Shown here piece by piece: positions 18,756 to 24,468 of a stretch of 64,000 nucleotides of DNA. The stretch spans positions 248,001 to 312,000 of the forward strand of contig JAHXIQ010000002.1 of assembly GCA_025655555.1 (NCBI GenBank), written 5' to 3'. Position numbers and translations under genes: made by a program. Source of the DNA: Candidatus Thiodiazotropha sp. (ex Myrtea sp. 'scaly one' KF741663) (GTDB taxonomy: Bacteria > Pseudomonadota > Gammaproteobacteria > Chromatiales > Chromatiaceae). The notes beneath the pieces were generated by a model. It ran no database searches. It was not told where the DNA came from and saw only the letters and a program-made list of their open reading frames with translations. Numbering within the stretch: the first letter of the stretch is position 1; the number at the start of each line of letters is the position of its first letter.

Positions 18756-20918
18756 TCAAACTGAAGAGAGGTTGGCGTAGGCAACAACCAGCCACTTGCT
18801 GCCAACCTCCTCAAAATTGACCTGTACCCGGGCACTACGTCCCTGGCCTTCGGCATTGAGTACAACACCCTCACCGAATTTAGCATGCCGTACCCGCTGG
18901 CCCAGATTAAACCCGCTGAGTTCCACCGTATCCTGGTAAGGCGACCCGCCGTAGAGTGGTTGGCTGATAGACGGCCCGGCTCGTACCTCCCGCATCAACT
19001 CCGAGGGGATCTCGCGGATGAAGCGAGAGGGCAGGGGGTAGTTCTCACTGCCGTGCAGCCGGCGGCTCTCCGCATGGGAGAGATAGAGCACCTGCATGGC
19101 GCGGGTCATTCCCACATAGCAGAGCCTGCGCTCTTCCTCCAGACGTGTCGGGTCATCGGATGACATGCTATGCGGGAAGAGCCCTTCCTCCACGCCAACC
19201 AGAAATACCAACGGGAACTCCAGCCCCTTGGCCGAGTGCAGGGTCATCAGCTGCACACAATCCTCATAGGGATCACCTTGAGTATCGCCCGCCTCCAGCG
19301 CCGCATGGGAGAGAAAGGCGGAGAGTTCATCCATCTCCTCATCCGCCTCTGCCTCATAGGTAAATTGGCGGGTGGCGTTAACCAACTCCTCCAGATTCTC
19401 CTTGCGGTCGACACCCTTGCCGTCCCGACTCTTCTCGAAGTGTTCAGGCAGACGGCTGGCGTTGAGGACCTGCTCAACCTTCCCCGGCAGACTGAGGTCT
19501 TGTACCTCGATTTGCAGCTCCTCAACCAGATCGAGAAACCCCCGCAGTGCCGTAGATGCCCGCTTGGGCATAGCACCCCCTTTCAACAGGTCCGATGCGG
19601 CCTGCCACAGGGGGCAGTCGAAATCCCGCGCATGCGCCCGCACCGCATCGATGGTCTTCGCTCCGATGCCCCTGGGCGGCATATTGACCGCCCGCTCGAA
19701 GGCCCCGTCATCCTGTGGATTATTGAGCAGACGCAGGTAGGCCAACGCATCCTTGATCTCGGCCCGCTCGAAAAAGCGTAAGCCACCATAGACCCGATAT
19801 GGGATTGCCGACTGGATCAGCGCCTCCTCGAACAAGCGGGACTGAGCCGTGGTGCGATAGAGAATAGCCGCCTCAGTTCTGGCATGCCCCTCTTGTATGT
19901 ACTGACGGATACGCTCCACCACGAAACGGGCCTCGTCGATCTCGTTAAAGGCGGTATAGAGGTTGATCGGCTCCCCCTCTCCATCTTCGGTCCAGAGCTG
20001 TTTGCCGAGGCGCGAGGTGTTGTTGTTGATCAGTGCATTGGCGGCGTTCAGAATATTACCGGTGGAGCGGTAATTCTGCTCCAGCCGTACCAACTGGGTC
20101 GCTTGATGCTGTGTTTGAAGATTCTGGATATTCTCCACCCGTGCTCCACGCCAGCCGTAGATCGATTGATCATCATCACCCACCACAAAGAGGTTGTTGC
20201 GCTGCCCGGAGAGCAATTGCAGCCATGCATACTGAATCGCATTGGTATCCTGAAACTCATCCACCAGTACATGATGGAAACGCTCCTGGTAGTGTTGCAG
20301 CACGTCCGGCCTATCACGCCACAATTCATGTGCCCGCAGCAGCAATTCTGCAAAATCCACCGAACCACCCCGTTCACAGGTAGCTTGATATTCGCTGTAA
20401 AGGCGGATCATCTGCCGCTGATAGGGATCGCCACCGTCATCCAGATGCTGGGGACGCAGTCCCTCATCCTTTTTACCATTAATGAACCACTGGACCTGAC
20501 GCGGTGGCCAGCGCGCATCATCCAGATCGAGGCTCTTCAGCAGTCGCTTGATCATGCGAAACTGATCGTCGGAATCGAGAATCTGGAACGACTGGGGCAA
20601 CCCCGCCTCTTTCCAGTGGGCGCGCAGCAGGCGATGCGCCAGTCCGTGAAAGGTGCCGACCCACATCCCACCCAGAGGCTGGCCCAGCAGCTCCTCGATG
20701 CGTTGACGCATCTCTTTTGCAGCCTTATTGGTGAAGGTCACCGCCATCACCGACCAGGGGGAGGCATTCTCCACCGCCAGCAACCAGGCAATACGATGCA
20801 CCAGCACACGGGTCTTACCGCTGCCGGCACCGGCCAGCACCAGCAGGTTACCCACCGGTGCGGTGACCGCTTCGCGTTGAGCATCGTTCAGGGGATCGAG
20901 TATCAGTGAGACATCCAT
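18756..20918 (-). CDS. uvrD: DNA helicase II (UvrD)
   Basis: The 720-residue SF1A helicase unwinds DNA in nucleotide-excision and mismatch repair. Motif I AGAGSGKTRVL is near residue 31, followed by VTFTNKAAKEMRQR, the DEFQDTN Walker B, GDDDQSIYGWRGA, QNYRSTGNIL, and late LMTLHSAKGLEFPLVF and EERRLCYVGMTRA. The C-terminal FGEGVV tail typical of UvrD is present. The ATG at 20918 has no clear Shine-Dalgarno, and a large nested palindrome starts 9 bp upstream, so its 5' leader must be that structure. Confidence 0.97.
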   Translation of the reverse strand: MDVSLILDPLNDAQREAVTAPVGNLLVLAGAGSGKTRVLVHRIAWLLAVENASPWSVMAVTFTNKAAKEMRQRIEELLGQPLGGMWVGTFHGLAHRLLRAHWKEAGLPQSFQILDSDDQFRMIKRLLKSLDLDDARWPPRQVQWFINGKKDEGLRPQHLDDGGDPYQRQMIRLYSEYQATCERGGSVDFAELLLRAHELWRDRPDVLQHYQERFHHVLVDEFQDTNAIQYAWLQLLSGQRNNLFVVGDDDQSIYGWRGARVENIQNLQTQHQATQLVRLEQNYRSTGNILNAANALINNNTSRLGKQLWTEDGEGEPINLYTAFNEIDEARFVVERIRQYIQEGHARTEAAILYRTTAQSRLFEEALIQSAIPYRVYGGLRFFERAEIKDALAYLRLLNNPQDDGAFERAVNMPPRGIGAKTIDAVRAHARDFDCPLWQAASDLLKGGAMPKRASTALRGFLDLVEELQIEVQDLSLPGKVEQVLNASRLPEHFEKSRDGKGVDRKENLEELVNATRQFTYEAEADEEMDELSAFLSHAALEAGDTQGDPYEDCVQLMTLHSAKGLEFPLVFLVGVEEGLFPHSMSSDDPTRLEEERRLCYVGMTRAMQVLYLSHAESRRLHGSENYPLPSRFIREIPSELMREVRAGPSISQPLYGGSPYQDTVELSGFNLGQRVRHAKFGEGVVLNAEGQGRSARVQVNFEEVGSKWLVVAYANLSSV

Positions 20919-20927
20919 GGGAGTATT

Positions 20928-21213
20928 TTATTAACCTGGCACCTTAATAGGCTATGTTCAGCCAAAGTCTGCCTGCCTGCAGCAAGGCATCAAAACGCCA
21001 CTGTAGCACTCCTACAGTCAGTTTTGATAACGCAGTCTGTAGGCAGGCAGACTTTGGCCTATCTCTATAAAATTCATCTGTTAGGGGCTTCAAGCATGCT
21101 CTTGATCAAGGCACGGCTCCTGCCAATGGTGATCTCCCTGGCAAGAACCATAACGCAGAACAAGGGCATGCTTGAAGCCCTGAACATAGCCTATTAAGGT
21201 GCCAGGTTAATAA
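20928..21213. repeat. 286-bp nested palindrome with cloverleaf-like folding
   Basis: The outer arms 20928-20961 and 21180-21213 are perfect 34-bp inverted repeats. Inside them are two hairpin arms. Arm 1 (20961-21058) has a perfect 18-bp stem GCCAAAGTCTGCCTGCCT, plus inner pairs ATCAAAAC/GTTTTGAT and ACTGTAG/CTACAGT around loop CACTC. Arm 2 (21085-21180) has a perfect 15-bp stem GGGCTTCAAGCATGC. A 26-nt single-stranded stretch joins them. No protein is encoded. It fills the gap between uvrD and glk. It could be a MITE-like element, a structured RNA or a protein-binding cruciform. Confidence 0.85.
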
Positions 21214-21268
21214 CCGGCTTATCCGTTAGAATTATCTAAAAGAACAACATGATTAATGAGGCTCATCC

Positions 21269-22252
21269 ATGCAGATCCTGGCTGGCGACATCGGCGGCAC
21301 CAACACCCGGCTGACACTCTATAATGCCGCCTCCCCAACCAAGCTCGAACCGCTCAGGGAGGAGACCTACCCCAGTGCCGCTTTCGATAATCTTGATGCT
21401 ATTCTGCAGCGTTTCCTAGAAACATCACCCACTGAAAGCGTAGAGCGGGCATGCTTCGGTATTGCCGGCCCTGTGATCGATCAGGTCTGCAGTGCCACCA
21501 ATCTGCCATGGCGGGTTGCCGCCAGTGAGATAGAGCAGACATTCGACTTCGATGCAGTCTGGCTGTTGAACGATCTGGAGGCTAATGCCTGGGGTATCGA
21601 GGCACTACCGGAGGAGGACCTCCTGACCCTCTCTCCCGGGCATGGTGAAGCAAAGGGCAATCGTTCCATCATTTCTGCAGGTACCGGACTCGGCGAGGCG
21701 GGTCTCTTTTGGGATGGCCGTGGTTATCAGCCCTTCCCCTCCGAGGGCGGCCATAGCGACTTCAGTCCCTGCAATCTGTTGCAATTTGAACTCTACCAGT
21801 GGCTGGCCGATCAATACGGTCATGTCAGTTGGGAACGTCTGGTCTCCGGTCCCGGCCTGGAGAATCTGCATCGTTTCATTACCGGATATCGACAACATAA
21901 GACCCCCGATTGGCTGCTCCAGCAGATGTCGGAACTAGGTCGAGCGCCGGCCATCTCCAATGCTGCACTGCAAGCGCTCGACCCCATTTGTGTCGAGGCG
22001 CTGGACCTCTTCATATCTCTGTATGGCCGTGAGGCGGGCATCCACGCCCTCAAGATCATGGCCACCGGGGGTGTCTATCTGGGCGGTGGCATCGCACCCA
22101 AGATTTTACCCCGATTGAAAAATGGTGGATTTCTGACTGCCTTCCACAATAAGGGAAGGATGCGGCCCCTGATGGAAACCATGCCTGTGCACATAATCCT
22201 GAACGATAAGGCCGCCCTGTTGGGGGCGGCCCGATTTGCTGCACTTCAATGA
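21269..22252 (+). CDS. glk: Glucokinase
   Basis: The 327-residue ROK-unrelated bacterial glucokinase phosphorylates glucose with ATP. It has the phosphate-binding GDIGGTNTRLTLY at the N-terminus, FGIAGPV, NDLEANAWGI with the catalytic Asp, SAGTGLGEAGL, the glucose-binding SEGGHSDFSPC and the adenosine-site TGGVYLGGGIAPKI. Length is standard. It stands alone on the + strand and converges on the peroxidase gene. Confidence 0.95.
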   Translation: MQILAGDIGGTNTRLTLYNAASPTKLEPLREETYPSAAFDNLDAILQRFLETSPTESVERACFGIAGPVIDQVCSATNLPWRVAASEIEQTFDFDAVWLLNDLEANAWGIEALPEEDLLTLSPGHGEAKGNRSIISAGTGLGEAGLFWDGRGYQPFPSEGGHSDFSPCNLLQFELYQWLADQYGHVSWERLVSGPGLENLHRFITGYRQHKTPDWLLQQMSELGRAPAISNAALQALDPICVEALDLFISLYGREAGIHALKIMATGGVYLGGGIAPKILPRLKNGGFLTAFHNKGRMRPLMETMPVHIILNDKAALLGAARFAALQ

Positions 22253-23528: not shown

Positions 23529-23591
23529 CTAAAACAATGATGCAGATCAACTGACTTGATGAGTCGACAAGCAATGGAAAGAAGGGGGAGC

Positions 23592-23860
23592 TAGGGCCTG
23601 TTAATACTAATTTGATTGCCACTGTTGCACCTGAAAAAGCGCCAATCAAGGCACGAGGAGCGTAGTTTGGTTATTCCAAATGAGCGACGAGTAACGCCGA
23701 GTGTCGCTTTTTCAGGAGCAACCCGCAGGGCCAAGGCCATTTTTTCACCCAGCGGCGTTATCAGTCGTTTATGTAGGCCAGCTACACGGCACTCCTTCTG
23801 CCTTGCTGGACAAAAAAATGGTCTTGGCAGTGACGATCAAATTAGTGTTAACAGGCCCTA
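23592..23860. mobile_element. IS630-type MITE, full-length copy
   Basis: The non-coding element (265 bp between TA duplications) begins GGGCCTGTTAATACTAATTT and ends with the inverted copy finishing TTAACAGGCCC. The terminal inverted repeats match at 28 of 31 positions. It is flanked on both sides by TA within CTAG, the preferred target of IS630. An internal inverted pair CTGAAAAAGCG / CGCTTTTTCAG (23631-23641, 23705-23715) forms a subterminal hairpin. The right-hand CTAG supplies the stop codon of the Fur-family gene. A decayed copy lies at 3753-3926. No transposase of that family is in the window. Confidence 0.85.
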
Positions 23861-24292
23861 GGGGCTTTGATTTCTCACGCGGATGACCACGTCGGCGGTC
23901 TCCATCACCGTACCATCCGGCAGGTCGCTTTGCAGGAAGAGGGGGACAAGGCGCTCCTTCATATCGATGAGATCGCCTGTATCAACGTTGTAGAAGTGGT
24001 GATGCCGACTCGCATTGGAATCGTAGAAGGTCTTGGAAGCATTAATGTGGATCTCCCTGACCAGACCCTTATCAGCAAACAGACCAAGCGAATTGTAGAT
24101 GGTTGCCTTGGATACTTTGGTACCATTTTTATTCACAAGATCGAGCAGTTGGTCAGCTGTAATATGCTGGTTTCGTGCAAACAACGCCTCGGCAATGATG
24201 CGTCGTTGTGCAGTCACGAAGATGCCGTGCTCTGCCAGCATCTGCTCGACCTGCTTTTTCTTGAGCAACTGATCATGTGTGTTCGGGGTCAT
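23858..24292 (-). CDS. Fur-family regulator, cysteine-free Irr/PerR-like
   Basis: The 144-residue metalloregulator starts at 24292; the frame further upstream has no ribosome site. The winged helix lies at about 20-85 (TAQRRIIAEALFA, SKATIYNSLGLFADKGLV). The dimer domain carries RHHHFYNVDTGDLIDM with His97-His99. There is no cysteine anywhere, so the structural CxxC zinc sites of Fur and PerR are absent. The HHH motif and missing cysteines resemble Irr, which responds to heme or oxidant. Its place between a peroxidase and a rubrerythrin operon suggests it controls both. Its stop codon is formed with the MITE border. Confidence 0.88.
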   Translation of the reverse strand: MTPNTHDQLLKKKQVEQMLAEHGIFVTAQRRIIAEALFARNQHITADQLLDLVNKNGTKVSKATIYNSLGLFADKGLVREIHINASKTFYDSNASRHHHFYNVDTGDLIDMKERLVPLFLQSDLPDGTVMETADVVIRVRNQSP

Positions 24293-24468
24293 CGTCTTAG
24301 TATAGGGAGATATGGTGGTTAAACACAATAACTGGCTGAAATTAGTCCGATTTAAGCCAACCTTAATTCAGACGCTGTCAGTCAATCGATCGATAGACTG
24401 GAGATCTTTATCCATCTTAGGCAAAGACTATCAACACCATTGAAACAACCATTAGCTTCCAATCAATT

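Follow-up and report, generated by a model that had tools for sequence, protein, structure and literature searches.

The 286-bp nested palindrome beside uvrD in the window (the whole 64,000-nucleotide stretch of Candidatus Thiodiazotropha DNA that was analysed) belongs to a family, here called F1, of mobile, non-coding MITEs that insert at TA. The label MITE follows from the copies, their empty sites, the insertion at TA, and the ends that a sister family, F2, has in common with a complete IS630-type IS. As the best explanation, at a probability of about 0.58, we propose that F1 is a non-autonomous IS630/Tc1-type MITE whose stems are matched by way of a folded strand, with one half templating the other.

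A nested palindrome between uvrD and glk

The element (20928-21213) consists of a 34-bp outer stem around two hairpin arms. The outer stem (20928-20961 and 21180-21213; 34 nt, 100% complementary) forms the terminal inverted repeats. The stem of arm 1 (20961-20982 and 21037-21058) is 95% complementary over 22 nt, 18 of them perfect, and that of arm 2 (21079-21107 and 21158-21186) is 86% complementary over 29 nt, with 15 perfect. These results bear out the three nested perfect stems, with 18- and 15-bp arm cores, that an earlier note had described from the sequence. Its statement that the symmetry is far beyond chance was confirmed by folding: as + strand RNA, the element reached -172.9 kcal/mol compared to -86.9 +/- 5.3 for 100 dinucleotide shuffles (z -16.3), and the - strand of 20928-21213, folded as DNA, gave z -17.4 compared to shuffles. 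Among inverted repeats ≥ 20 nt whose arms lie no more than 400 from each other, nine occur in the window; three of these form the uvrD-side element and three form a second element at 23591-23861, called F3. No ORF of at least 60 aa overlaps 20928-21213, and the element ends 9 bp before the uvrD ATG (20918, minus strand), as had been noted. It does not fill the whole spacer as claimed, but most of it, leaving about 55 bp towards glk (ATG at 21269). The features of both elements are as follows.

20929..20930, no strand: left TA (target duplication); from the sequence, the TA target being shown at other copies with empty sites
20931..20961, + strand: left half of the outer stem, starting TTAACC; the family terminus is TATTAACCCGGC, here TATTAACCTGGC
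20961..21058, + strand: arm 1, a 98-nt hairpin; arm model R1, 80.5 bits (R1 was built with this arm)
20983..20988, + strand: conserved CAAGGC at the base of the arm 1 inner hairpin; arm alignment
21029..21033, + strand: AACGC, conserved partner in the mismatch motif of arm 1; arm alignment
21059..21084, + strand: inter-arm linker; sequence and alignment
21085..21180, + strand: arm 2, a 96-nt hairpin; R1, 71.5 bits on + and 14.4 on - (this arm is also in the model), and alignment
21107..21112, + strand: CAAGGC in arm 2; arm alignment
21152..21156, + strand: AACGC in arm 2; arm alignment
21180..21210, + strand: right half of the outer stem, with GGTTAA at its end; sequence and inverted-repeat analysis
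21211..21212, no strand: right TA (target duplication); sequence
23591..23861, + strand: nested element F3, same plan, ends CTAGGGCCTGTTAA; inverted repeats and R1
23624..23722, + strand: F3 arm A; R1, 51.0 bits (arm in the model)
23730..23828, - strand: F3 arm B; R1, 50.8 bits (arm in the model)

The inner part and loop of arm 2 are inverted in the window copy relative to most aligned copies, and both arm loops are inverted in the copy L073, as read from the alignment.

Genomes G018 and G014 carry the uvrD-side copy at the same place (97 and 96% identical), within a stretch of 1301 bases that is matched over its full length at 94 and 93%, respectively. An artefact of assembly, which the earlier note had named as a refuting outcome, is thereby made very unlikely. 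The copy is absent from six other uvrD spacers (G006, G011, G002, G005, G019, and G015), which are too diverged to give a clean empty site. The insertion beside uvrD probably took place in the common ancestor of the window's own genome (G000), G018, and G014.

The 34-bp outer stem of F3 contains 3 mismatches, and the F3 arms are 88 and 83% complementary. The element is missing at the matching place in G018, which has CTAGG between the flanks, and in G014, which has nine other bases there; F3 is either young or was lost in both genomes. It sits in a CTAG at the 3' end of a Fur-like ORF (23858-24328, minus), where the stop codon TAG is retained.

Copies, target site, and candidate transposase

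A search of the same genome and its relatives, as the earlier note had proposed, returned multiple copies with paired substitutions in their stems, and not the single copy free of paired substitutions that the note had named as refuting. At E ≤ 0.001, G000 itself holds F1 sequence at seven further places, mostly partial; one of them (L003, contig C5) is a full copy with the same plan and different stem sequences. At this threshold F1 matches occur in 19 of the 22 genus genomes, own included, compared to none of 18 genomes outside the genus searched at the same sensitivity. G006 is the richest genome, with 35 matches at E ≤ 1e-30, and the terminus ATTAACCCGGC occurs there 135+125 times compared to 0+1 for the reversed control. 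The 13 end pairs that were read in G006 lie 32 to 726 bp apart, deletion forms included. The longest span, L212 201-926, is a 726-bp F1 element whose arms are separated by several hundred bp of other DNA, and 255 bp of this DNA share 92% identity with sequence in the Y1 loci L237 and L242. Plasmids gave no match to two F1 copies, and the arm pattern was not found in collections of genome contigs and viral contigs; the end pattern matched three viral contigs. Model R1 found nothing at E ≤ 0.1 in 80 named uvrD loci from genome contigs (524,675 bases), none of them attributable to the genus, which is a weak control in which few matches were expected.

Mobility was read from empty sites. When the flanks of ten other copies were joined and searched in 22 genomes, uninterrupted sites were found in sister species for eight. 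By reading of the alignments, the empty junction has TA in 13 of the 14 occupied/empty comparisons at these 8 sites, and the duplication of TA is clearest at L073, L049, and L072. The exceptions are L052, whose empty site is without TA, and L076, which is without TA on either side. Among 39 aligned copies, 34 have intact ends, and TA flanks both sides of 27 of these. In other genera, our own count gave TA on both sides of 20 of 22 copies, where the finder required TTAA ends and L325, at a contig end, was outside the count.

This TA target points to enzymes of the IS630/Tc1 type. An IS at locus L218 in G006 has a complete 362-aa DDE_3 gene between inverted repeats, and its right end matches the ends of F2, which has the same plan as F1 and a different outer stem, at 23 of 24 bp by eye. 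Unlike the elements, this IS630-type IS encodes a transposase, and no arms were seen in it. F1-like ends were also met near DDE_3 sequence: in L361 (G187), TATTAACCAGGC lies 40 bp before the ATG of a DDE_3-type gene that is cut by the contig end; in L356, on another contig, a DDE_3 fragment lies near TATTAACCCGGC; and in L367 (G146), a DDE_3 ORF with a frameshift close to its end extends into an F1 end. With L367 frameshifted and L356 a fragment, the search found no intact F1-ended IS. DDE_3 genes were found in 3 of the 22 genus genomes. As parents of F1, the genus IS630 genes were rejected: in a check that covered L216, L217, and L218 and left out L249, the F1 terminus (≤ 2 mismatches) was missing from L216 and L217, and one weak match lay inside the L218 locus. 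Among the matches listed, no two F1 ends at a distance of 0.7-4 kb were seen to enclose a transposase gene. Arms 5.3 kb apart on contig C76 of G091 were considered as a long autonomous F1 element, and were taken as an assembly artefact because the ORFs of the contig are mirror images; the contig (L310, 7.2 kb) is probably a palindromic artefact as a whole. From these sequence comparisons, an IS630-type transposase would be the enzyme that moves F1.

Another enzyme might move F1 instead, for example an HUH/Y1 protein that works on single strands, as in IS200/IS605 or REP elements, with the IS630-like ends being coincidental. A strand-folding intermediate is natural for HUH enzymes, and IS200-like Y1 transposase genes have F2-type elements downstream of them in L221 and in L223 and L227, two loci of two genomes that look alike. 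We know of no duplicated TA target for IS200/IS605. Moreover, the F2 ends match an IS630-type IS, and the F1 terminus (12-mer, ≤ 1 mismatch) was absent from all 33 loci with DDE_3 or Y1 genes (L216-L248), including the 30 Y1 loci of four genomes (L219-L248) that served as the REP/BIME-RAYT test, so that a Y1/REP origin of F1 was not supported. A duplicated TA target is instead what is stated for the IS630-linked repeat RUP (PMC2229807). Together, we regard movement by an HUH/Y1 enzyme as very unlikely.

Paired substitutions and their origin

The alignment has 39 sequences, 36 of them nearly complete; the stems were counted in 35 copies, leaving out three deletion forms (L064, L075, and L085) and L063, which has an aberrant arm 2. 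Watson-Crick pairs make up 2574 of the 2671 cells over 77 stem pairs, and the rest are G-T (29), A-C (44), or other (24); at least two Watson-Crick types occur at 46 of the 77 pairs (35 of 39 copies). Similar values were obtained for 22 copies from four other genera (1436 of 1534 cells Watson-Crick; G-T 30, A-C 48, other 20), a set in which L335, L336, and L345 gave no element and L321 was too long to align. Paired switches comprised 2625 transitions and 3388 transversions in the genus, in a count that also left out L003, and 1795 and 1925 in the other genera. The corresponding linker differences, transitions to transversions, were 1014 to 2602 and 753 to 1955. The share of transitions is higher among stem switches (44%) than among linker differences (28%), which is a sign of some selection.

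These counts bear on a second option of the earlier note, a structured RNA (regulatory or sRNA) that was spread by duplication and whose stems are kept by selection on the transcript. The strong fold and the covariation would agree with such an RNA, as would one terminator-like stem on the + strand (21000-21018; 0.2 expected). However, an RNA read from the tested strand would favour G-T, and G-T is not in excess over A-C in either set; there is no wobble preference on this strand, and if anything one for the other strand. In addition, more than half of the pair switches are transversions, no Rfam family matched the window at gathering score, and 20850-21300 contains no sigma-70-like promoter. 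The structured-RNA reading is not supported, and we consider it extremely improbable. Because the substitutions are paired without a G-U preference, the constraint on the stems looks like one on DNA, not RNA.

We compared copies that stayed in place with copies that moved. In five comparisons of orthologous copies at four loci, we counted 20 single and 0 paired stem changes, where one pair in L082/L088 that had changed on both sides and was unmatched in L088 was scored as single. A sixth comparison, L065/L067, which is outside this sum, gave 3 single and 0 paired changes. An orthologue of F3 for this comparison was sought in G018 and G014 and was not found. By contrast, 18 G006 copies showed 1435 paired and 314 single changes, summed over all copy pairs, which are not independent. 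Hence, paired changes in G006 go with movement and not with residence, and stems seem to regain their complementarity in the lineage that moves. Copies in G146 (551 paired, 374 single; 11 copies) and G155 (197 paired, 89 single; 5 copies) lean like those in G006. The opposite was found in G261 (9 paired, 60 single; 5 copies), which fits only a single burst followed by decay and counts against a simple rule.

The rates vary within the element. In 17 G006 copies (L063, part of the 18-copy count, is left out here), paired changes in the outer stem (0.167 per pair) are as frequent as differences in the linker (0.169 per site), which is the pattern that plain copying of a mutated half onto its partner would give. 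Arm 1, with a paired rate of 0.108, and arm 2, with 0.069, are both slower than the linker. In resident copies, the stems changed at 0.044-0.064 single changes per pair compared to 0.102 per site in the linker, in a small sample, and resident stems may not simply decay freely.

On the explanation we prefer, a non-autonomous element of ~280 bp would insert at a TA dinucleotide beside uvrD, and its outermost ~12 bp would be the terminal repeat bound by an IS630-type transposase supplied in trans. The paired ~98-nt hairpin arms inside would be a module that is common across the class and joined to different ends. A folded strand, as a fold-back or a cruciform, would be an intermediate in making new copies, and at this step one stem half may template or correct the other, such that a new copy would start with matched stems and then decay by single mutations. 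Of the three options in the earlier note, a MITE was thus favoured by the copies, the empty sites, the TA target, and the IS630-type relative of the sister family, and its cruciform survives in the form of a DNA fold (cruciform or fold-back strand) that likely is the working form. Several results count against this explanation: the G261 counts; the arm rates, by which only the outer stem matches free copying; the slow resident stems; the transition share of the stems; the mismatches in F3, which is absent from G018 and G014; the lack of an intact F1-ended IS; the dependence among pair counts within a genome; the TA exceptions L052 and L076; and the restriction to four orthologous loci. IS630 transposition is known as a cut-and-paste of duplex DNA, which also counts against this explanation.

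The main rival explanation invokes selection alone. Here movement would be of ordinary duplex DNA, and matched stems would be a precondition for it, for instance if a cruciform had to form; some copies would become perfect again by double mutation or by rare template-switch repair in place, and only these would spread. This mechanism also predicts paired changes in mobile lineages and single changes in residents, and it agrees with arm stems that are slower than the linker and with stem switches that are richer in transitions than linker differences. The correction it invokes has a precedent, in that quasi-palindrome correction, attributed to template switching, is described as a known mutation type in yeast (PMC3820800). 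However, none of the 20 resident differences was paired, and the equality of outer-stem and linker rates would require that correction is not limiting. We hold selection alone to be possible, but doubtful as the full account.

A class-wide arm module and comparison with known systems

Twenty-two chosen arms from F1, F2, and F3, 96-99 nt in length, were aligned in one direction. The inner hairpin has C-(A)-A-G-(G)-C at its base, opposite A-A-C-G-C, and this motif is mostly unpaired in the consensus fold. An arm (~98 nt) combines a stem whose sequence is free with a C(A)AGGC / AACGC mismatch motif that is fixed. Model R1, built on these arms, found matches at E ≤ 0.001 in 98 of 274 sampled genomes of the class (own included) and in 83 of 222 genera. 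Among 38 loci, some of which overlap, there were 27 distinct neighbouring arm pairs, all in + then - order (convergent); two more, ordered - then +, connect one element with the next, and no partner was found for 12 arms. Spans of 262-299 bp were seen in 22 of 25 examined pairs. One of the 25 is cut by the locus end, and the 24 readable pairs showed ten terminal types, of which the F1-like TATTAACC accounted for 11 pairs; others start with CTAG or TTACTAA. Ten end types on the same arm pair imply that one internal module goes with different ends, and this coupling extends across the class.

Locus L324 (G146) has two nested elements side by side, apparently of different families. A small hairpin, GCCCCGAAGGAAGTGCCCTTGGGG, lies inside an arm of both L076 and L223, which are elements of different families, and is possibly a second tiny mobile palindrome.

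The coupling to different ends also admits a reading in which the two arms together form a selfish module, independent and class-wide: a satellite to IS630-type ISs that repeatedly takes the ends of different ISs and is copied via a folded single strand, with its halves templating each other. Its perfect palindromes would then be renewed at each move, and CAAGGC/AACGC would be the recognition site of a shared factor. We consider this rather unlikely, and return to F1 as a non-autonomous IS630/Tc1-type MITE.

A literature search, with subscription papers and ISfinder outside its scope, returned no recognisable description of these elements. Bacterial MITEs are mostly described as IS remnants with simple hairpins; unlike these, the elements here have a conserved internal module that is common to elements with different ends. 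The T-shaped terminal palindromes of parvoviruses also have an outer stem around two hairpin arms, and their complementarity is renewed by hairpin copying; these are the ends of viral genomes, on which a Rep protein acts, whereas F1 is a chromosomal repeat, and the likeness is one of plan only. What F1 adds is that changes during residence (single) can be told apart from those that accompany movement (paired) by comparison alone, which makes the persistence of matched long palindromes in genomes directly testable in a small, countable system.

Other palindromic MITEs exist in Thiomargarita (PMC4853749). The repeat unit of pneumococcus, RUP, has ends in common with IS630-Spn1 and, together with the TA-ended MITEs Correia/NEMIS, resembles F1 as a short repeat with TA ends (PMC2229807). 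RUP differs from F1 in its 107 bp and single stem-loop, and sharing of arms across families is not part of the available account of these repeats in PMC2229807. In that account, bacterial repeats other than CIR are given as one stem-loop closed by the ends, with neither arms nor linker. The CIR repeats of Caulobacter and Brucella are like F1 in having two inverted-repeat arms and a linker; they differ in that no outer closing stem is described for them there, and in that their arms expose a GANTC methylation motif (PMC2229807).
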